Source of the DNA: Actinomycetota bacterium
GTDB lineage: Bacteria; Actinomycetota; Thermoleophilia; Gaiellales; F1-60-MAGs149
DNA: 35,711 bases
Direction of reading: 5' to 3'
Assembly: GCA_947478745.1 (NCBI GenBank)
Contig: CANJXE010000007.1
Span: 1 to 35,711 of the forward strand
Part shown: in pieces, positions 25,360 to 35,711 of the stretch
Layout of the letters: the number at the start of each line of letters is the position of its first letter
Position numbering within the stretch: position 1 is the first letter of the stretch
Notes under the pieces: generated by a model
The model's database searches: none
What the model saw: only the letters and a program-made list of their open reading frames with translations
What the model was told of the DNA's origin: nothing
Position numbers and translations under genes: made by a program

Positions 25360-25980
25360 ATGACTAACCAGTCAGTCAGGAACGAGGCCGAGCTCGACCG
25401 GCGCAGCCAGATCCTCGAGTGCACCTGCAGCGTGATTGCGCGGGATGGTGCCGAGGGCCTGCGCATGGCGGCCGTCGCCCGCGAGGCCGGCGTCTCCAGC
25501 GCGCTGCTGCACTACTACTTCGCGACCCGTGAGGATCTGATCCGGCTCGCCTTCGAGTACCACGAGACGCGCGAATCGGCCCGCGGCGAGGAGCGGATCG
25601 CCTCCATCCCGGACACGCTCGACCGCGTGCGGGACGTGCTCGAGCGCGAGCTGTCCGACGACGAGGTCGTCCGCGAGGGCTGGGTCCTGTGGAGCGAGAT
25701 GAGCCGTACCGCGATCTTCCGCGACGACTTCCGCGCCTCCGTCGCCGATCGCTCCGCGCGTTGGGTGGGCCTGATGGCCGACCTGATCGCCGCGGCGCAG
25801 GACGCCGGTCGCCTGCCGGCGGACGTCGATGCCGTCTCTGCCGCCCTGCGGCTGACGTCGCTCGTCGATGGGCTCGGCTCGCACGTCATCATCGGATCGA
25901 TCTCGCGGGCCGAGGCCCGACGCACGTTGGACATCGCCATGCGGGAGATGCTCCACTTCGAGGAGGGACCGGCCCTGTGA
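25360..25980 (+). CDS. TetR family transcriptional regulator
   Basis: 'RRSQILECTCSVIARDGAEGLRMAAVAREAGVSSALLHYYFATREDLIRLAFEY' TetR HTH. Confidence 0.95.
   Translation: MTNQSVRNEAELDRRSQILECTCSVIARDGAEGLRMAAVAREAGVSSALLHYYFATREDLIRLAFEYHETRESARGEERIASIPDTLDRVRDVLERELSDDEVVREGWVLWSEMSRTAIFRDDFRASVADRSARWVGLMADLIAAAQDAGRLPADVDAVSAALRLTSLVDGLGSHVIIGSISRAEARRTLDIAMREMLHFEEGPAL
25361..25378. promoter_or_regulatory. candidate TetR operator overlapping the start codon
   Basis: TGACTAACCAGTCAGTCA; 7 of 9 base pairs fit dyad symmetry (TGACT...AGTCA arms). Confidence 0.55.
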
Positions 25981-27227
25981 GCTCCACCCGTCGACGCACC
26001 AAGGCCACCCGGCCCGGCACCGCCAAGCTGACGCTGAACGCCAAGGCCTACGCCGATCCGGCGATCTACGAGCGGGAGCGGCATGAGGTCTTCGCCAAGG
26101 CGTGGATGATCATCGGCCACGTCGCCGAGGTCGTGAACGCCGGCGACTTCACGACGGGGGAGATCGGCGGCGAGCCGATCGTGGTCGTCCGCGATCAGGA
26201 CGGAACGCTGCGCGCGTTCTCCAACATCTGCCGGCACCGGGCGGCCAAGCTCGCCGAGGGCCGCGGCTCGTGCGGCAAGGTGCTGCGCTGCCCGTACCAC
26301 GGCTGGACCTACCGCTTGGACGGCACGCTGGCGGCGATGCCCGAGGGACGCGGCTTTGGCGAGGACTTCGATCGGGATCAGGTGCGCCTGCCGCAGTTCC
26401 AGGTCGAGGTGCTTGGGGGCCTGGTCTGGGTCAACATGGACGCCGGCGCCCCGCCGCTGCGGGAGTGGTTCGGCGAGGAGATCTGCGCCCGCTTCGAGTC
26501 GCTCAACATCGACCAGCTGGTGCCGCTGACGCAGCGTGACTGGCAGCCGCGCGAGATCCTCCGCGGCCTGCCCGACGTGATCCGCTCGCGGCGTCTCGCC
26601 GACGCCAAGGCGCTGATTCCCGAGGCGGGGTACCAGCGTCTGCACGCGACCTTCGACCACAACTGGAAGACCCTGGCGGACAACTACCTCGAGGGGTATC
26701 ACGTGCCGATCGGGCATCCGGGCCTCTTGCGCCTGCTCGACTACCCGCAGTATCGGCCGACGCTCTACGATCGCGCCGTCTGGATCGACGGTCCGCTGCG
26801 CGACAACCCGTCGCGCGACTTCATGGAGAGCATGTACCAGCGCTTCAAGCGGCCGATGGCAGAGCTCCCGCAGGAGCTCGAGAACCAGTGGACGTACATC
26901 CACTTCTGGCCCGCACAGTTCGTGCAAATCTATCCCGAGTCGATCGACACCTGGCAGATGCATCCGGAGGGCCCGCTGCGCACCAAGACGACGTCGATGG
27001 TGTTTCACTCGCCCAACGAGTCGCTGCGCGACACGGCCGTCCGCCGGCTCAACTATCGATTCAACACCGAGGTCATGGACGAGGACGTCGTGCTCTGCGA
27101 TGGCGTCCAGACCGGCCTCGGTTCGATGACGTACACGCGCGGCGTGCTGAACGACAACGAGCGGGCGGTCGGGCACTTCCACGACCTGCTGCGCGATGCG
27201 GTGCCCGGCATCGATGACCTCTCGTAG
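25977..27227 (+). CDS. Rieske non-heme iron oxygenase, alpha subunit
   Basis: Rieske 'CRHRAAKLAEGRGSCGKVLRCPYHGW'; mononuclear iron site 'NWKTLADNYLEGYHVPIGHP'; GTG 25977 overlaps the TetR stop. Confidence 0.93.
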   Translation: MSSTRRRTKATRPGTAKLTLNAKAYADPAIYERERHEVFAKAWMIIGHVAEVVNAGDFTTGEIGGEPIVVVRDQDGTLRAFSNICRHRAAKLAEGRGSCGKVLRCPYHGWTYRLDGTLAAMPEGRGFGEDFDRDQVRLPQFQVEVLGGLVWVNMDAGAPPLREWFGEEICARFESLNIDQLVPLTQRDWQPREILRGLPDVIRSRRLADAKALIPEAGYQRLHATFDHNWKTLADNYLEGYHVPIGHPGLLRLLDYPQYRPTLYDRAVWIDGPLRDNPSRDFMESMYQRFKRPMAELPQELENQWTYIHFWPAQFVQIYPESIDTWQMHPEGPLRTKTTSMVFHSPNESLRDTAVRRLNYRFNTEVMDEDVVLCDGVQTGLGSMTYTRGVLNDNERAVGHFHDLLRDAVPGIDDLS

Positions 27228-27573
27228 GTTCGGTCGGCACGACTGGCTCGGACTGACGCCCGAGGTCGAGCGCTTCGGGCCCCTGCTCGTCGATCGCATC
27301 GCCGGGGCGCTGGGCGAGTCCCACGACGAGCTCGGAGAGACCCGCATCGAGGAGCTCATCCGCACCGGCGATGCAGCAGCGTGGCTGGCGTACCTCGCCG
27401 CGCTGACGGCGCTGGTGGAGCGGGGAGCTGCGGCGGGCACGGCTCCGGCCGAGACCGAGATCCTGGCGGGCATCCTCCGCGACCAGTACCGCCTCGCCCC
27501 GGGCGTCCTCGTCCTCTCGGCGACCGACGTGGCACGCTCCCAGCACCTCGAAGCCCTGCTGGAGCACGCATGA
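27214..27573 (+). CDS. hypothetical protein, 119 aa
   Basis: ATG 27214; overlaps the Rieske gene end by 14 nt and the next gene start by 4 nt, consistent with translational coupling. Confidence 0.7.
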   Translation: MTSRRFGRHDWLGLTPEVERFGPLLVDRIAGALGESHDELGETRIEELIRTGDAAAWLAYLAALTALVERGAAAGTAPAETEILAGILRDQYRLAPGVLVLSATDVARSQHLEALLEHA

Positions 27574-29606
27574 CCGACGCCCTGCGCACCGATTTCGCCC
27601 CCCTGCTCGACATCCGCCGTGCCGCGGTCGTCGGCGCGTCAGACCGCGGGCTCGGGTACACGCTGATCGAGAACCTCAGCGCCCACGGCGGCGAGGTCGT
27701 CGGCATCCACCCGACGCGCGAGACTGCCGGTGGGAAGCCCTGCGTGCCGAGCATCCACGAGCTGCCCTGGAAGCCGGACGTCGTGGCAATCGGCCTGGGC
27801 GCGCGCACGATCGTCGGGGCACTCGACGAGGCGATCGCCGCCGGCCATCGGCACTTCGTGATCCCCGGCCTCGGTGCCGAGGCGGCGGGTGAGGAGGGCG
27901 ATGCGGCCCGCGCGGCTGTGCGGGCACGGCTGATCGACGCCGACGCCGTCTGCGTGGGCTTCAACTGCATGGGCCTCGCGGTGCCGGAGCGACCGTCGCC
28001 GTGGATCGGCACGATCAGCACCGGCTTCCGTCCCGGTGGCGTGGCAGCCATCGTCGGCTCGGGTTCGATCGGTGAGGCCGTGCTGGCGTTCGGCCCGCGG
28101 GTGGGCTTCCGCAATGTCGTGTCGATCGGCTCGGAGACGAGCCGCGACGCCGCCGATTGGCTCGCGTTCCACGCGCAGGACGAGGGAACCCGTGCCATCG
28201 GGCTCTTCCTGGAGGCCGTGCGGCGTCCCGCGGCCTTCCGGGAGGCGCTCGCGCGCGCAGCGGACGCCGAGAAGCCCGTCGTGGTGATCAAGGTCGGCCG
28301 CTCCGAGGTCGCCGCGCGCAACGCAATGGCACACACCGGCGCGATCGTCGGCTCGGACCAGGCCTTCGACGCACTCTGCCGCTCCTACGGCGCGATCCGC
28401 GTCGACGACTACGGCGACTGGCTCGAGCAGCTCGAGGTGCTCGGCTCGCCGCGCCGGCCGCGCGGATTGCGCACGGTCCTGTTGACCAACTCGGGGGGTG
28501 AGGCCGAGCTCGTGGCCGACGTCGCCGATGCCGCCGGCATGCCGCTGACGCCCCTGCCCGCCGACCTCGCCGCGGAGATCGACGCTGCCTACCCGTTCCA
28601 CGGCGTGCACAACCCGATCGACTACTGGGCCTTCGCCGACGCCGAGGTGATCGTGCCGGACCTCGCGCTGCGTTGCGCGAGCCATCCCGACGTCGACAAC
28701 GTGATCATCAACATCGACCAGTCGTGGCGGTTCACCAACGATGAGCGCCAGAACGCCGAGGATGCCTGTGGCGCGATGGCTGATGCGGCTCTGGCGAGTG
28801 GCGCCTTCTGCGCCGTCCTCTCGACGGCCGTCTCCGATCCCTCCGATGCCGCCGTCCACGCCGCTGCGCGCGGGGGCGTGCCGGTCCTGATCGGCGCCGG
28901 CATGGGCATGCGCGCGATTGCGCGGGCGGCCCGCTGGACGCCGACCAAGCCGGAGGCACCCGCACCGTGGGAGACGCCGGCGTGCCCCGAGCTGGAGCGC
29001 GAGTCCGGTCATCTGGCCGAGGCCGACGCCAAGGCCGTGCTCGCCCGCTACGGCGTGCAGGCCCCGCGCGAGATCCGCGCCGCGAACCCGGAGGAGGCCC
29101 GCGCTGCCGCGGCCGCGATCGGCACCACCGTCGTCGTCAAGGTCGATGGTCCCGCGCACAAGGAGAAGTACGGCGGCGTGATCCTCGGCTGCACCGACCC
29201 CGATCGTGCTGCTGCGGCAGCCGAGCGGATCGGCGCCCCGGTGCTCGTCTGCGAGGAGATCCGCGGTGGCGCCGAGGTGCTGTGCGGGCTCGTGCGCGAT
29301 CAGCTCTACGGCCCGATCGTGGTCGTGGGTGTCGGCGGCTCCTGGGCCGAGGCGGTCGGCGACACCGCGCGCGCCGCGCTCGGACCGATCTCCCAGGCCG
29401 ACGCGGAGCGCCTCGTGCGCTCCGTCAAGCCGCTCGAGCGCCGGCTCGACGATGCCGACGTGGCCACGGTTGCCGCGACGCTCGTCGCCCTCGGTCGCGT
29501 GGCCCACGATCATCCGCGCGTCGCGGAAATCGACGTCAATCCCCTCGTGATCCGCGACGGCTCGGGCGTGGCGCTCGACGGGCTGATCGTGCTCAGCGAC
29601 AACTGA
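27570..29606 (+). CDS. ADP-forming acyl-CoA synthetase (acetate--CoA ligase family, fused alpha/beta), copy 1
   Basis: CoA-binding 'RRAAVVGASDRGLGYTLIENL', 'NAMAHTGAIVGSDQAFDALCRSYGAIRVDD', C-terminal ATP-grasp 'VVVKVDGPAHKEKYGGVILG...VAEIDVNPLVI'. Confidence 0.92.
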   Translation: MTDALRTDFAPLLDIRRAAVVGASDRGLGYTLIENLSAHGGEVVGIHPTRETAGGKPCVPSIHELPWKPDVVAIGLGARTIVGALDEAIAAGHRHFVIPGLGAEAAGEEGDAARAAVRARLIDADAVCVGFNCMGLAVPERPSPWIGTISTGFRPGGVAAIVGSGSIGEAVLAFGPRVGFRNVVSIGSETSRDAADWLAFHAQDEGTRAIGLFLEAVRRPAAFREALARAADAEKPVVVIKVGRSEVAARNAMAHTGAIVGSDQAFDALCRSYGAIRVDDYGDWLEQLEVLGSPRRPRGLRTVLLTNSGGEAELVADVADAAGMPLTPLPADLAAEIDAAYPFHGVHNPIDYWAFADAEVIVPDLALRCASHPDVDNVIINIDQSWRFTNDERQNAEDACGAMADAALASGAFCAVLSTAVSDPSDAAVHAAARGGVPVLIGAGMGMRAIARAARWTPTKPEAPAPWETPACPELERESGHLAEADAKAVLARYGVQAPREIRAANPEEARAAAAAIGTTVVVKVDGPAHKEKYGGVILGCTDPDRAAAAAERIGAPVLVCEEIRGGAEVLCGLVRDQLYGPIVVVGVGGSWAEAVGDTARAALGPISQADAERLVRSVKPLERRLDDADVATVAATLVALGRVAHDHPRVAEIDVNPLVIRDGSGVALDGLIVLSDN

Positions 29607-29616
29607 TCGGACCCCC

Positions 29617-30810
29617 ATGGACTTCTCCCTGACCCCCGCGCAGCAGGACCTCCGGGCCCGCGCCCGCCAGTTCGCCGATGCGCTGATCCCGCATGAGGTC
29701 GCTGCCGAGGAGGCCGGTGGCGTCGTGCCCGGCGAGGTCAAGGCGGAGATCCGTCGGCTGGCACGCGAACTGCGCCTGATCGGCGGGAACCACGCAGTCG
29801 AGCACGGGGGCCAGGGCTGGTCGATGATGGAGCACGTGATCGTGCACGAGGAGCTCGGTCGCATCACCAACGGCCTCTGGTGGCTGATGGGCGGTGGGTA
29901 CAACGTGCTCGCGCTCGGGACGCCCGAGCAGATCGAGACGCACCTCAAGCCGACGCTGTTGGGTGATCGGGCGGACGCCTACGCCGTCACCGAGCGTGAC
30001 GCGGGCTCCGATGCCAGCGGCATCAAGGCGATCGCCGAGCGCGTCGACGGCGGCTTCCGGATCCGCGGCGAGAAGTGGTTCGTCACCAGCGGTGACCACG
30101 CCGACTTCCTGATCGTGATGGCGAACGTCCTCGACGGTGGCAACCTGCTGCCGACGCTCTTCCTCGTGGACCTTCCCTGCCCGGGCGTCGAGATCATCGA
30201 TGACCCGCTGTTCACCCACGTCTTCCCCGACGGGCATCCCACCTACCAGCTGGACTGCGTCGTGCCGGAGTCCGCAGTCCTCGGAGGCCCGAGCCAGATC
30301 GGGCAGGGGGACAAGGGCCAGCACGCCTGGTTCGTCGAAGAGCGCATCCACATCGCTGCGCGCTGCGTCGGCGCGATGCAGCGCCTGCTCGACGAGGCGG
30401 TCGCGTGGGCGACGCAGCGACAGCAGTTCGGGCAGCCGATCATGGAGTTCCAGGGCATCAGCTTTCCGCTGGCAGACTCTGCAGCCGACTGCGTGGCCGC
30501 TCGCCTGCTGACCTACCAGTGCGCGCAGATGTTCGACGACGGCGCGGCCGGGAAGCTCGTCCACGCCCGCGCCAGCATGGCCAAGCTGTTCGCCAGCGAG
30601 CGCGCGTACGTCTGCGCCGATCGCTGCGTCCAGACGTGGGGCGGGCGCGCGTACATGCGCCGCAACGCCGCTGAGCGGCTGCTGCGCGAGTTGCGCGTCG
30701 ACCGCATCTGGGAGGGCACCTCGGAGATCCAGCGAGTGATCGTCGCCAACGCGCTGGTCAAGCGCGGCGTCGCCGCCACGCTGGCCGTCGACCCCGAGGA
30801 GACCCTGTGA
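29617..30810 (+). CDS. acyl-CoA dehydrogenase
   Basis: 'DAYAVTERDAGSDASGIKAIAERVDGGFRIRGEKWFVTSGDHADFLIVMA', 'RQQFGQPIMEFQGISFPLADSA', 'LRELRVDRIWEGTSEIQRVIVANAL'. Confidence 0.96.
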   Translation: MDFSLTPAQQDLRARARQFADALIPHEVAAEEAGGVVPGEVKAEIRRLARELRLIGGNHAVEHGGQGWSMMEHVIVHEELGRITNGLWWLMGGGYNVLALGTPEQIETHLKPTLLGDRADAYAVTERDAGSDASGIKAIAERVDGGFRIRGEKWFVTSGDHADFLIVMANVLDGGNLLPTLFLVDLPCPGVEIIDDPLFTHVFPDGHPTYQLDCVVPESAVLGGPSQIGQGDKGQHAWFVEERIHIAARCVGAMQRLLDEAVAWATQRQQFGQPIMEFQGISFPLADSAADCVAARLLTYQCAQMFDDGAAGKLVHARASMAKLFASERAYVCADRCVQTWGGRAYMRRNAAERLLRELRVDRIWEGTSEIQRVIVANALVKRGVAATLAVDPEETL

Positions 30811-32882
30811 GCCTGCGTCGCGACCTGACCCCGATGTTCGCACCGCGCAGCGTGCTGCTCGTCGGTGCAACGGGCGACACCCTCAAGTGGGGTGGCTGGG
30901 TCTCGAAGTCGTTCGGCGATCACCAGCACCTTCGCGACACGCACTTCGTGAGCCTGCGCGGTGGTGAGCTGTACGGCCTGCCGGTGCACACCACGATTGC
31001 AGCCGTCGAAGCCCCGATCGATCTGGCAGTCATCGTCGTGCCGGCTCCGGGCGTGCCGCAGGCCGTGACCGAGTCGCTCGCGCTTGGCGCGAAGGCGCTC
31101 GTCATCATCACGTCGGGCTTCGGCGAAACCAGTGCGGATGGCCTCGCCGTGCAGGAGGCGATCGTCGAGGAGGTGCGTGCCGCGGGTGCCGTGCTGCTCG
31201 GTCCCAACTGCCTCGGACTCTATGACGACAGCCAGCAGCTCAACGTCTACGGCGGCACGTTCCCGTCCGGGGACCTCGCCTTCGCCACCCAGAGCGGCAA
31301 CCTGGCCCTCGAGGTCGCGTTGCTGCTGGAGCGCTCCGGACAGGGACTGACGCGGTTCGCGAGCGTCGGCAACCAGGCCGACCTGACGCTCGCGGATCTG
31401 ATCCGCGACTTCGCCCATCACGAGCCATCCAAGGTCGTCGGCGCCTACGTCGAGTCGCCCAAGGACGGCGCTGACTTCGCCGATGCGGTGCGTGAGGCAG
31501 CTGCGATCAAGCCCGTGGTGCTCTTCGCGGGCGGCCGCACCGCTGCCGGCGCGCACGCCGCCGCATCGCACACCGGCAACCTCGCGGCCGAATCGCGCGT
31601 GCTGCGCGCCATCTGCCGCGATGCCGGCGCGGTGGTCGTCGATTCGCCCGGAGCCTTCGTCGATGCCGTCTCGACGCTGCGGACGGGCAAGACGCTCGGC
31701 CGTCGCCGGATCGGCATCGTCGCCGACGGCGGCGGGCACGGCGTCGTGGCCAGCGACACCGTCACGGAGGCCGGCCTCGAGATGGCGGTGTTCTCCCCGG
31801 CGACGCGTGCGGCGCTGCAGCCGCTGCTGAAGCACAACGCGCCCGACAACCCGGTTGACCTGGCCGGGGCGGACGCCTCGGTGCTGTGGCACTTCCACGG
31901 GCTCGTCGACGCCATGGTGCGCGCTCCCGAGGTCGATGCGGTGCTGATGAGCGGCTACTTCGGCGGCTACGGCGCCTATCACCCGGAATCAGGGGATCTC
32001 GAGGTCGAGGTGGCCGAGGCCATCGCGCGTCTCAGTGATGAGACGGGAAAGCCCGTCGTCATCCAGTCGATGGAGGAGGCGAGCGGCAACCGGACGATCA
32101 GCCGGCTCCGGGAGGTCGGCGTGCCGGTCTTCTCGCGCATCGAGAACGCCGTGGATGCGCTCACCTGCCTCGATCGACCGCCGGTCGTACGGGCACAGGA
32201 GCCCGGGCCGGTGCCCGCACGGCAGCTCAGCGCCGTGCCCGCCTACCCCGAGGCACGCGAGGTCCTCGCAGAGCTTGGGATCGCGTTCCCGGCGGGGCAG
32301 CTGGCCCGTACGGCGGCTGAGGCCGCCGCGGCGCTGGAGGCCGTGGGGTCGCCCGCAGCCATGAAGGCAGTCGCGGCCGAGCTGCTGCACAAGACCGACG
32401 CCGGCGGCGTGGTGCTGGGCGTCACGACGCCGGAGGTGGCAGCGGAGACCTTCACCACCATGACGCACCGCGTGGAAGCAGCAGCGGGGCTCAAGCTGGA
32501 CGGGATCTGGGTCGAGCGGATGGCCGAGTCGGGCGGAGTCGACCTCGTCGTCGGAGCCCGGCGCGACCCGAGCTTCGGCCCGGTCATCCTGGTCGGCGTT
32601 GGCGGCGTGTTCGTCGAGGTGCTCGACGACGTGATCCTGGCCCCCGCGCCGACGGATCCTGCGCATATCGAGGCGCTGATCCGCACGCTGCGGGCCTTCC
32701 CGCTGCTCGCCGGCGCCCGTGGTCAGGCGCCCGTTGACTGCATGAAGGTGGCGGAGATCGCGACACGGCTCGGCGATCTGATGCTCGCGCATCCGGAGAT
32801 CGCGGAGGTCGAGATCAATCCGCTGCGGGCCACGGCCGAGGGCGCCACCGCGCTCGACGCGCGGATCGTCACGACGCACTGA
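30807..32882 (+). CDS. ADP-forming acyl-CoA synthetase (acetate--CoA ligase family, fused alpha/beta), copy 2
   Basis: 'APRSVLLVGATGDTLKWGG', 'LGPNCLGLYDDSQQLN', 'TQSGNLALEVALLLERSGQGLTRFASVGNQADLTLADL', 'ASHTGNLAAESRVLRAICRDAG', ATP-grasp 'MKAVAAELLHKTDAGGVVLG...EVEINPLRA'; GTG overlaps the preceding stop. Confidence 0.94.
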   Translation: MSLRRDLTPMFAPRSVLLVGATGDTLKWGGWVSKSFGDHQHLRDTHFVSLRGGELYGLPVHTTIAAVEAPIDLAVIVVPAPGVPQAVTESLALGAKALVIITSGFGETSADGLAVQEAIVEEVRAAGAVLLGPNCLGLYDDSQQLNVYGGTFPSGDLAFATQSGNLALEVALLLERSGQGLTRFASVGNQADLTLADLIRDFAHHEPSKVVGAYVESPKDGADFADAVREAAAIKPVVLFAGGRTAAGAHAAASHTGNLAAESRVLRAICRDAGAVVVDSPGAFVDAVSTLRTGKTLGRRRIGIVADGGGHGVVASDTVTEAGLEMAVFSPATRAALQPLLKHNAPDNPVDLAGADASVLWHFHGLVDAMVRAPEVDAVLMSGYFGGYGAYHPESGDLEVEVAEAIARLSDETGKPVVIQSMEEASGNRTISRLREVGVPVFSRIENAVDALTCLDRPPVVRAQEPGPVPARQLSAVPAYPEAREVLAELGIAFPAGQLARTAAEAAAALEAVGSPAAMKAVAAELLHKTDAGGVVLGVTTPEVAAETFTTMTHRVEAAAGLKLDGIWVERMAESGGVDLVVGARRDPSFGPVILVGVGGVFVEVLDDVILAPAPTDPAHIEALIRTLRAFPLLAGARGQAPVDCMKVAEIATRLGDLMLAHPEIAEVEINPLRATAEGATALDARIVTTH

Positions 32883-32924: not shown

Positions 32925-32954
32925 AGGGCCCGTCCACCTCGGTGGGCGGGCCCT
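32925..32954 (+). terminator. strong intergenic hairpin, possible terminator after the ACD/ACADH operon
   Basis: AGGGCCCGTCCACCTCGGTGGGCGGGCCCT forms about 13 bp with a 4-nt loop; no clear U-tract follows. Confidence 0.5.
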
Positions 32955-33078
32955 CGCGTTTGCCGCTGCTGGGGTTGACGGCCGATGCGGAGGTGGGATG
33001 GACGTTGGTACGGGTCAGTCCCGGTCCGCGGCCGGCGAGCACGTGGACGTACGGGGGGTGATCGCCGAATATGTCGGT

Positions 33079-33813
33079 GTGAGCTCCGTCGTCCTGTTCC
33101 CGACCTGCCTCGGCGATGTGGTTGCACGGCAGACCGTCGCCGACGCAGAGACGGTGCTGCGGCGGATCGGCGTGGCCGTCCGGCACCCGCGGGGCGCCAC
33201 CTGCTGCGGGCAGCCCGCGTTCAACTCGGGCCACGAGGGACCGGCGCGCAGCGTCGCGCGGGCAACGCTGCGCGCGCTCGATGACGGCACGGACGAGCCG
33301 ATCCTCGTGCCGTCAGGGTCCTGCACCAGCATGGTCCGCCTGCACTGGCGCGAGCTCTTCCACGGCACCGCACAGGCCGATGCTGCGATGCGCATCGCCC
33401 GGCGCGTGCGCGAGCTGTCGTCCTTCCTGGCCGAGCACACCGACGCGATCCGCGCCCTCTCCCCGCAGCTGACCGCCCGCGTCGGCTACCACGACAGCTG
33501 CCACATGCTCCGCGAGCTGCGCATCCAGTCGGCGCCCCGGGATGTCCTCCGCGCGATCGCCGGGATCGAGCTGGTCGAGCTCTCGAGCGGCGAGCGCTGC
33601 TGCGGCTTCGGCGGGACCTTCAGCACCCGGTATCCCGAGGTCTCCGTTGCCATGGCCGACTCCAAGCTCGACGATGCCGTCGCCACGGGCATCGATCTCC
33701 TCGTCTCGGCCGACCCCGGCTGCCTGCTGCAGCTCGGCGGCCGGCTCTCGCGCGAGGGTCGCCCGGTCCGTGCGGTGCATCTGGCGACCGTGCTCGCGGA
33801 GGCGCTGGCATGA
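33079..33813 (+). CDS. lutA: (Fe-S)-binding protein LutA (lactate utilization, CCG domains)
   Basis: GTG 33079 'VSSVVLFPTCLGDVVARQTV'; CCG motifs 'GATCCGQPAFNSG' and 'GERCCGFGGTFS'. Longer start at 32998 possible. Confidence 0.9.
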   Translation: MSSVVLFPTCLGDVVARQTVADAETVLRRIGVAVRHPRGATCCGQPAFNSGHEGPARSVARATLRALDDGTDEPILVPSGSCTSMVRLHWRELFHGTAQADAAMRIARRVRELSSFLAEHTDAIRALSPQLTARVGYHDSCHMLRELRIQSAPRDVLRAIAGIELVELSSGERCCGFGGTFSTRYPEVSVAMADSKLDDAVATGIDLLVSADPGCLLQLGGRLSREGRPVRAVHLATVLAEALA

Positions 33814-35255
33814 GCGTGCGCGAGGAGGTCGGCGGGACGCCCCTGCCCGAAGGCTGGTCGGCGCCCGCGCACCAGCCGGATGCCTTCGAGCTGGGCACGA
33901 CCACCTTCGGCGAACGGGCCCACCGCACGATGGCGCGCCCGTTCGCCCGCATCGCCATCGCGGGAGCCACGGATCACGCCGTGGCCTTGACGCAGGCGAA
34001 GTTCGCCAACGTGGATCACGACGCCCTGCGCGATCAGGGCCGCCAGATCCGCGCGCACGCGATCGCCAACCTGCCCGACTACCTCGAGCAGTGGATCGAC
34101 CGGGCGGAGGCCAACGGCACGACGGTCCACTTTGCCGCCGACGAGGCCGAGGCCCGCCGGATCATCGCGGGGATCTGCACCGACGAGCGCATTGAGAGCG
34201 TCGTCAAGTCGAAGTCGATGGCCTCGGAGGAGGTGTCGCTCAACTCCGCGCTTGAGGGTGCGGGCGTGGCGGTCTTCGAGACCGACCTCGGAGAGTTCGT
34301 CGTGCAGGCGATGGGCGACCGGCCGGGGCACGTGATCGCGCCGATCCTCCACCGCACCAAGGACGAGGTGCACGAGCTCTTCTCCGCCATGGCCGGGCGC
34401 GACCTGCCGAACGAGGCCGAGGCGCTGACGGCATTCGCCCGCGCCGGCCTCCGACACGCGTTCCTGACGGCCGACGCCGGCATCAGCGGTGGCAACTTCC
34501 TGATCGCCGAGACCGGGGAGGTGCTGCTCGTCACGAACGAGGGCAACGGGCGGCTGACGACCTCCGCGCCGCGCGTGCATATCGCCCTCGTCGGGATCGA
34601 GAAGGTGATCCCGCGGCGAGGTGACCTCGCCGTGCTGCTGCCGCTCTTGACGGGGCACGGCACGGGCCAGCAGATCACCACGTACGTGACGATCACCGGC
34701 GGGCCGCGGCGCGACGCAGAACCTGACGGTCCGGAGCGCACGCACGTCGTGCTGCTCGACGCCGGTCGCAGCGCGCTCCTCGGCGGTCCGTTCGAGGAGG
34801 CCCTCCACTGCATCCGCTGTGGCGCGTGCCAGAACGTCTGCCCCGTCTACCGGCAGGTCGGCGGGCACGCCTACGGGTGGGTCTACGGCGGTCCGATCGG
34901 GGCCGTCCTGACGCCGCTGTTCCGGGGGCAGGAGGAGGGCGGCGAGGTGGCACAGGCAACGACGCTGTGCGGCGCCTGCGACGACATCTGCCCGGTGCGG
35001 ATCCCGCTGCACGACCTCCTGCTCGACCTGCGGCGCCAGCGCGCCGACACGGGCCACGTGCCGCGTGCCGAGCGACTCGCCTTCGCCCTCTGGGGCGCGG
35101 TCTGGAGCCGCCCGGTCCTGTACCGCGCGAGCATGGCGGTCAACCGAACGGTCCTCGGCCTGGTGGGGCACGACGGAGCGGTCAGCGCCCGGCTGCCCGG
35201 CCTGCGGCGCTGGACGGAAGGACGCGATCTCCTCGTGCAGCGGCGGCGGACATGA
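33810..35255 (+). CDS. lutB: iron-sulfur lactate utilization protein LutB
   Basis: 'KSKSMASEEVSLNSALEGAGVAVFETDLGEFVVQ', 4Fe-4S motifs 'CIRCGACQNVCPVYRQVGGHAYGWVYGGPIGAVL' and 'CGACDDICPVRIPL'. Confidence 0.96.
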   Translation: MSVREEVGGTPLPEGWSAPAHQPDAFELGTTTFGERAHRTMARPFARIAIAGATDHAVALTQAKFANVDHDALRDQGRQIRAHAIANLPDYLEQWIDRAEANGTTVHFAADEAEARRIIAGICTDERIESVVKSKSMASEEVSLNSALEGAGVAVFETDLGEFVVQAMGDRPGHVIAPILHRTKDEVHELFSAMAGRDLPNEAEALTAFARAGLRHAFLTADAGISGGNFLIAETGEVLLVTNEGNGRLTTSAPRVHIALVGIEKVIPRRGDLAVLLPLLTGHGTGQQITTYVTITGGPRRDAEPDGPERTHVVLLDAGRSALLGGPFEEALHCIRCGACQNVCPVYRQVGGHAYGWVYGGPIGAVLTPLFRGQEEGGEVAQATTLCGACDDICPVRIPLHDLLLDLRRQRADTGHVPRAERLAFALWGAVWSRPVLYRASMAVNRTVLGLVGHDGAVSARLPGLRRWTEGRDLLVQRRRT

Positions 35256-35711
35256 CGGATCGCGCGTCGTTCCTCGCCGCTGTTCGTTCGACGCCGCGCG
35301 GCAGCGATCCCGGGCTGCCCGATCGCTCGCGGGCGCCGGATGCCCCGACCGAGCTGCGGCACGGCGAGGCTCTGCTGGAGCGCCTGGTGGCGGAGTCCGA
35401 GCTGGTCTCGACCGTGGTGCACCGATCATCCGCGGCCGAGCTGGGGGCCGTGATCGTGGCGATCCTCGCTCAGGCCTCAGCCTGCACCGTCGCGTTGACC
35501 GAGGACCTCGGCCCGTACCTCGAGGTGGTTCGACGCGCCTGCAGTGAGGCGGCGTTCGACGTTGGCGACTACCGCAACGCGGCGGCAGACAGAGCGCAGG
35601 CCGGGGCGCTGGATGCGACCGTGACCGGCTGCAGCGCCGCGGTCGCCGCGACCGGATCGATCGTGACGACCGCCACGGGCGCAGGCCGGGCCGGCGCGCT
35701 GATCGCACCGA
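35252..35711 (+). CDS. lutC: LutC/YkgG family protein, truncated by the window end
   Basis: ATG 35252 overlapping the lutB stop; 'TVTGCSAAVAATGSIVTTATGAGRAGALIAP' LUD-domain-like segment; position after lutAB. Confidence 0.8.
   Translation, partial: MTDRASFLAAVRSTPRGSDPGLPDRSRAPDAPTELRHGEALLERLVAESELVSTVVHRSSAAELGAVIVAILAQASACTVALTEDLGPYLEVVRRACSEAAFDVGDYRNAAADRAQAGALDATVTGCSAAVAATGSIVTTATGAGRAGALIAP

Follow-up and report, generated by a model that had tools for sequence, protein, structure and literature searches.

A conserved actinobacterial operon built around a new Rieske oxygenase clade, possibly for CoA-linked catabolism of cationic amines

We analyzed a 35,711-nucleotide stretch of DNA (the window; positions 1 to 35,711 of contig CANJXE010000007.1, assembly GCA_947478745.1) from the 88% complete metagenome-assembled genome (MAG) of a freshwater-type actinobacterium belonging to a small-genome genus of Actinomycetota. 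Six plus-strand genes at positions 25360–32882 encode a TetR-family regulator, a Rieske oxygenase alpha subunit, a 119-aa protein, an acyl-CoA dehydrogenase (ACAD), and 2 fused nucleoside diphosphate (NDP)-forming acyl-CoA synthetases (ACD1 and ACD2) (Table 1). An earlier note on this DNA had described the 6 genes as a tightly coupled catabolic operon, and on re-reading the sequence all junctions agreed with that description to the base. Every named family of the operon is backed by Pfam, the 119-aa protein alone having no Pfam family, and none of the 6 proteins reaches the cut-off of a named NCBIfam family. The regulator was rejected as BetI because its equivalog score is only 46 bits against a cut-off of 201. 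The operon contains no beta-subunit gene and, as the earlier note had stated, no reductase gene. The hairpin downstream of ACD2 (a 66-nt stretch at −49.2 kcal/mol, z −5.2), at which a consensus scan detected no T-tract terminator, probably marks the end of the transcription unit.

Table 1. Genes and features of the operon in the window.
Feature	Position	Strand	Junction	Basis
TetR-family regulator, BetI-type C-terminal domain PF13977	25360..25980	+		Pfam
Rieske oxygenase alpha subunit, group-V-like, start GTG	25977..27227	+	4-nt GTGA overlap with TetR	Pfam
119-aa all-helical protein, new family, motif WLxLTPExE, start ATG	27214..27573	+	14-nt overlap with Rieske
ACD1, fused NDP-forming acyl-CoA synthetase	27570..29606	+	4-nt overlap with 119-aa gene	Pfam
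ACAD, acyl-CoA dehydrogenase	29617..30810	+	10-nt gap after ACD1	Pfam
ACD2, fused NDP-forming acyl-CoA synthetase	30807..32882	+	4-nt overlap with ACAD	Pfam
GC-rich hairpin, 13 bp, probable transcription-unit end	32925..32954	+		Folding energy

The arrangement is well preserved among relatives. An orthologous Rieske gene is present in 9 of 12 genus mates (70% to 83% identity), with a tenth carrying the gene split over contig ends, and the order TetR–Rieske–119-aa–ACD1 is kept in all 9 genomes with an intact Rieske gene; the complete operon was recovered at loci L021–L023 and L105–L107. Given this retention, the gene order is beyond chance, and the loss of neighborhood that the earlier note had named as a possible refutation is not what the genomes show. 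Near relatives in the named collection comprise 2 MAGs (deep-Baikal Thermoleophilia and La Plata actinobacterium) and a contig labeled Bifidobacterium. The contig labeled Bifidobacterium breve (CAMAWJ010000005.1; L022) carries the whole operon with 75% to 87% protein identity and groups with the genus of the window, and is very probably a mislabeled MAG. In 2 genus mates, an extra TetR gene, 41% to 42% identical, lies directly upstream of the operon TetR (L105:7294-7938 and L107:9901-10545).

The core of the operon is also found in other Actinomycetota and, minus the 119-aa gene, in Pseudomonadota (genes at these loci were called from codon usage with a simple script rather than with a standard annotator). 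Within the same family, the locus of genome G013 (L102) encodes, in order, a PotD-like substrate-binding protein (SBP), 2 permeases, a PotA-like ATPase, TetR, Rieske, the 119-aa protein, ACD1, enoyl-CoA hydratase (ECH), ACAD, and ACD2, followed one short gene later by a flavoprotein of the old yellow enzyme (OYE) type. Within the same taxonomic order, TetR–Rieske–119-aa–ACAD is found at L100 and L101, and at L103 a unit ACD2–FAD amine oxidase–119-aa lies opposite TetR–Rieske–SBP–permeases–ATPase–ECH, with L024 and L104 being similar. The loci of Streptomyces, Couchioplanes, Streptacidiphilus, and Mycobacterium have ACADs, ACD2, a NuoF-like flavoprotein and/or a 63–64-aa ferredoxin, and the 119-aa gene, with the Rieske gene facing them and followed in most by SBP, permeases, ATPase, and FAD amine oxidase. 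The Streptomyces and Couchioplanes loci additionally carry an aldehyde dehydrogenase gene, and in Mycobacterium triplex the FAD enzyme comes immediately after TetR. The OYE-type flavoproteins, which belong to the trimethylamine-dehydrogenase/FadH class and are not encoded in the window, lie 3' of ACD2 at L106:4629-6569, L102 (from ~17834), and L023 (from ~12619). One amine-type locus also encodes a ring-hydroxylating oxygenase catalytic domain (PF00848) without a recognizable Rieske [2Fe-2S] domain (L104:673-1593).

All metal ligands of the Rieske protein are present, as the earlier note had read them: the [2Fe-2S] ligands C85/H87/C105/H108 and the iron site H242, H247, and D370 are invariant in the Rieske alignment. 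In that alignment, Y237, E239, H242, H247, and D370 correspond to Y203, E205, H208, H213, and the catalytic Asp of CntA, and the bridging Glu (E239) is likewise invariant, HcaE having Asp there. An aromatic residue at CntA position 203, which defines group Va (PMC7948474), is found in the window protein (Y237) and is Phe in L024. The CxxC cysteine pair that PMC10952381 describes in some group V enzymes is absent beside the iron, the positions being taken by Gly240 and Val243. A profile of the Rieske clade and its relatives matched CntA first among PDB sequences (2.1e-80, almost full length) and Stc2 second (2e-61). The structure prediction that the earlier note had suggested yielded an AlphaFold model (predicted local distance difference test score, pLDDT, of 90) whose 11 top Foldseek matches are all CntA chains, followed by Stc2, a stachydrine demethylase. 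In the trees, in which the root position and the long branches of HcaE and Stc2 are unsure, the protein falls within its own 27-row clade (support 99/99), outside CntA/YeaW and Stc2. It was accordingly rejected as CntA, and it was also rejected as GbcA, the score being 125 bits, over the N-terminal part only, against an equivalog cut-off of 670. Because fold and active site match, the enzyme would be expected to work like a group V enzyme, yet it appears to lie outside every characterized subgroup. The kinship with quaternary-amine enzymes over aromatic dioxygenases proposed in the earlier note is thus upheld by profile, fold, and signature residues, but the enzyme is neither GbcA nor CntA, the types that the note had given as examples.

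The 119-aa protein represents a real new family. It has no match in Pfam, NCBIfam, PDB sequences, or a fold search and is predicted to form 5 helices (pLDDT 83); the family alignment reveals the invariant motif W-L-x-L-T-P-E-x-E together with G52, W57, and L61. When 397 Actinomycetota genomes were searched with a profile of the family, 7 had it, and in all 7 a Rieske gene adjoins it; distant unlinked relatives could be missed, since Rieske-adjacent copies were used to build the profile. The protein, an orphan in the earlier note, thus belongs to a conserved family linked to Rieske genes. Its other neighbor varies (ACD1, ACAD, FAD oxidase, NuoF-like protein, or ferredoxin) while the Rieske neighbor is constant, which favors a Rieske-linked role; in genome G296, the adjoining Rieske gene belongs to a different Rieske clade. 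The proteobacterial loci of the Rieske clade showed no member of the family. The protein was rejected as a reductase, a ferredoxin, or the beta subunit of a Rieske oxygenase because it consists of 5 helices, conserves no cysteine, and has no match by fold, and we infer that it is a Rieske-specific partner, acting in assembly, docking, or electron delivery.

The 2 synthetases each carry CoA-binding, Succ_CoA_lig, and ATP-grasp domains on one chain, and the phosphohistidine motifs are kept in both ACD1 (H255 in HTG and H530 in HKxxxGG) and ACD2 (H255 and H528). The nearest solved structure of ACD2 is a 4-hydroxybutyrate–CoA ligase (ADP-forming), and that of ACD1 is the DMSP (dimethylsulfoniopropionate) lyase DddX, over the whole length (4.9e-58). 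DddX joins CoA to DMSP, an onium acid, employs Trp391/Phe435 as cation-pi residues and Glu432 as a base, and is often neighbored by betaine/DMSP transporters (PMC8163506). The ACAD has the 3 ACAD domains and the classical catalytic Glu (E366, in (I)WEGTSEIQ), and was rejected as the crotonobetainyl-CoA dehydrogenase CaiA (124 bits against an NCBIfam equivalog cut-off of 540). The CoA activation and dehydrogenation envisaged by the earlier note are supported.

The neighborhoods of the Rieske clade (FastTree support 0.90) were compared with those of other Rieske oxygenases at loci 10 kb or longer. The clade is associated with a PotA-type ATPase (24/38 loci versus 0/29; p 1e-8), an ACD (24/38 versus 2/29; p 2e-6), an ACAD (19/38 versus 0/29; p 1.5e-6), a putrescine-oxidase-like FAD enzyme (17/38 versus 0/29; p 9e-6), and an aminobutyraldehyde dehydrogenase (15/38 versus 0/29; p 5e-5), these p-values overstating the significance because related genomes were counted as independent. 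Proteobacterial members of the clade lie near PotABCD-type genes and a class III aminotransferase; 3 of them (L027, L041, and L059) have BKACE, thioesterase, and ACD genes beside the Rieske gene, and another (L040) has a carnitine 3-dehydrogenase (595.8 bits; cut-off 592), a homologue of which is carried by L046. A 3-hydroxybutyryl-CoA dehydrogenase scores above its cut-off in L028. Annotated plasmid records of relatives mostly bear generic names and include one carnitine-type cluster.

Taken together, these data suggest, with a probability of about 0.5, that the operon is under TetR control and that its products break down a cationic, C4-type nitrogen compound with a short acid chain in an O2-dependent, CoA-linked manner. 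This compound would most likely be a quaternary amine or betaine of the gamma-butyrobetaine–carnitine type or an acid that is derived from polyamines and closely related to it. The earlier note had guessed at betaines or other small carboxylates; the gene neighborhoods of relatives favor amines or betaines of the polyamine or carnitine type over small carboxylates in general. A gamma-butyrobetaine/carnitine-like substrate is our leading guess, although rather unlikely when taken alone. We infer the following order of steps. The ACD enzymes would form the acyl-CoA with ATP by a phosphohistidine mechanism, and the ACAD would place a double bond between the alpha and beta carbons. ECH would add water, and a 3-hydroxyacyl-CoA or carnitine dehydrogenase would oxidize the 3-hydroxyacyl product; the genes for both would lie close by in relatives or at other sites in the genome. 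Cleavage or oxidative demethylation of the C–N unit would fall to the group-V-like Rieske enzyme, presumably with electrons from a reductase encoded elsewhere and with the 119-aa helical protein as its partner.

For the electron supply in trans, a PF00175 search of the host genome gave one match, a membrane oxidoreductase resembling the ferric-reductase type, and the NuoF-like query found only a NuoF-type protein of 30% identity. A mycobacterial-type ferredoxin was not found in this genome, and an HcaD-like ferredoxin reductase (G000:C34) is a candidate.

Elsewhere in the host genome, contig C9 has a carnitine-dehydrogenase-like gene whose best named family is L-carnitine dehydrogenase, and contig C10 encodes a clear BKACE domain (317 bits; 55% identical to the L027 BKACE). 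These 2 genes make carnitine-type chemistry plausible for the organism even without the evidence from the window. Directly 3' of the BKACE gene lies a second Rieske oxygenase of this genome, with the CxxC pair (ENFIECYHC; L146:3537-5482, G000:C10).

Several observations weigh against the proposed substrate class. Gene context is the sole pointer to the substrate, and the window operon lacks genes for a transporter, an amine oxidase, and an aldehyde dehydrogenase; neither a PotD-type binding protein nor a full-length putrescine-oxidase-like enzyme was found in the 88% complete genome, and its C9 carnitine-dehydrogenase-like protein stays under the curated cut-off (344 of 414 bits). The Rieske clade stands apart from the characterized group V enzymes in the trees. 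The signature motif DNYLEGYH and Tyr 203 also occur in relatives without nearby amine genes, so Tyr 203 is not diagnostic of the substrate, and the motif was dropped as proof of a quaternary amine. Finally, the associations with BKACE and carnitine dehydrogenase, at 3 and 2 loci, are not significant (p 0.25 and 0.5).

Much of the comparative context could also be read as catabolism of putrescine- or other diamine-type polyamines, an explanation that we consider rather unlikely. In most Actinomycetota, following import of a diamine by a PotABCD-type transporter, the putrescine-oxidase-like flavoprotein and aminobutyraldehyde dehydrogenase would produce a 4-amino acid, the CoA ester of which would be oxidized by ACD, ACAD, ECH, and 3-hydroxyacyl-CoA dehydrogenase; the Rieske enzyme would remove or modify nitrogen, and the lineage of the window would retain only the acid-processing core. 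The binding proteins in the loci of relatives are indeed PotD/PotF-like, the closest solved relative of their FAD enzyme is putrescine oxidase over the whole length (6.5e-48), their aldehyde dehydrogenases exceed the aminobutyraldehyde dehydrogenase cut-off in L028 and L041 (slightly below it in L026), and the proteobacterial class III aminotransferases would fit as well. However, the kin of the Rieske enzyme act on quaternary amines, some loci contain carnitine-type genes, and the transporter and oxidase are missing from the window genome; to our knowledge, the known putrescine routes need neither a Rieske enzyme nor a CoA ester. The putrescine-oxidase-like FAD enzyme does occur in 6 genus mates (50% to 52% identity). 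In G010 its gene directly follows another Rieske gene (L148:6943-9379), in G003 it lies ~5 kb from a different Rieske gene, and in G001 (L150:3348-4784) ~5 kb from a gene of the trimethylamine-methyltransferase (MTTB) family.

Catabolism of aromatic or phenylpropanoid acids is improbable. In this reading, the Rieske protein would be an aromatic hydroxylase or O-demethylase, with feruloyl-CoA-synthetase-like ACDs and the ACAD acting on the side chain. Fused ACDs such as feruloyl-CoA synthetase work in these pathways, the Rieske domain scores with HcaE too, and annotated relatives are labeled aromatic ring-hydroxylating dioxygenases. Yet the operon has no beta-subunit gene, a bridging Glu replaces the usual Asp, Tyr occupies position 203, and both profile and fold place CntA and Stc2 on top. 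Furthermore, the loci of relatives hold amine transport and amine oxidase genes, and no dihydrodiol dehydrogenase or ring-cleavage gene was present among the annotated neighborhoods. Least probable is a pathway for DMSP- or beta-alanine-betaine-type onium acids, in which a DddX-like ACD1 would form the onium acyl-CoA and split it into dimethyl sulfide or trimethylamine plus acryloyl-CoA: the whole-length match to DddX and the transporters near DddX genes (PMC8163506) agree with it, but the match is weak evidence because few ACD structures have been solved, and the DddX route needs no Rieske enzyme.

Among known systems, the Rieske protein of the window resembles CntA of CntA/CntB (YeaW/YeaX, group Va) in fold, metal ligands, bridging Glu, aromatic residue at position 203, and lack of a beta subunit, but differs in its separate clade, the missing Cys pair, the absence of an adjacent CntB-type reductase, and its setting among ACD, ACAD, and 119-aa genes. 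With the group Vb systems of Stc2 and GbcA it shares the second-best structural kinship (Stc2) and, in some relatives, the OYE flavoproteins after ACD2, whereas position 203 is Tyr rather than Asn and GbcA scores remain far below the cut-off. The bbu cluster of Emergencia timonensis similarly couples CoA activation to a flavoenzyme of the ACAD superfamily whose substrate is a betaine acyl-CoA, but it is anaerobic, uses CoA transferases instead of ACDs, eliminates trimethylamine through BbuA, and has no Rieske enzyme (PMC8364193). Homologues of the carnitine dehydrogenase/BKACE route to glycine betaine (LcdH/CdhC, DhcAB; PMC12482172) lie next to the proteobacterial Rieske genes of the clade and at other sites in the genome of the window, but outside its operon, and the known route has neither ACD nor ACAD. 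Lastly, homologues of putrescine oxidase, aminobutyraldehyde dehydrogenase, and PotABCD all flank the Rieske/119-aa pair in Streptomyces loci, and those of the transporter and oxidase are also found in Thermoleophilia and some mycobacterial loci; they are absent from the window operon, and the known putrescine route lacks an ACD and ACAD as well as a Rieske enzyme.

In the literature searched, we found no characterized pathway with the same gene order, as the earlier note had anticipated, and no description of a Rieske plus polyamine locus or a gamma-butyrobetaine plus ACD locus. It is possible, if still doubtful, that the locus specifies an undescribed aerobic, CoA-linked route for betaine- or polyamine-type amines in Actinomycetota, Streptomyces and some mycobacteria among them, and in some Pseudomonadota; the route would rest on the new Rieske clade and, in Actinomycetota, on an obligatory 119-aa Rieske partner. 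Much of the nitrogen and carbon traded in soil and water takes the form of betaines, carnitine, and polyamines. A widespread actinobacterial locus for such amines, undescribed in the papers found, would contribute a new Rieske clade whose substrate class can be tested, as well as 2 NDP-forming CoA ligases with possible activity on charged acids. The fixed Rieske linkage of the small protein family suggests a new component of oxygenase function, and the findings argue against the label "aromatic ring-hydroxylating dioxygenase" on annotated relatives.

Downstream of the hairpin, a LutABC-like LUD/CCG unit, on which the earlier note was silent, spans window positions 32998-35711 and runs to the contig end. 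It encodes a CCG protein, an LUD/4Fe-4S protein (438 of 445 bits for LutB/LldF), and an LUD protein truncated at the contig end. The unit is syntenic in relatives, where it can be split from the operon by an OYE gene (L106) or by 2 opposite-strand genes (L105). Because the hairpin intervenes and some relatives separate the two, the unit was ruled out as part of the operon and is probably a separate transcription unit.

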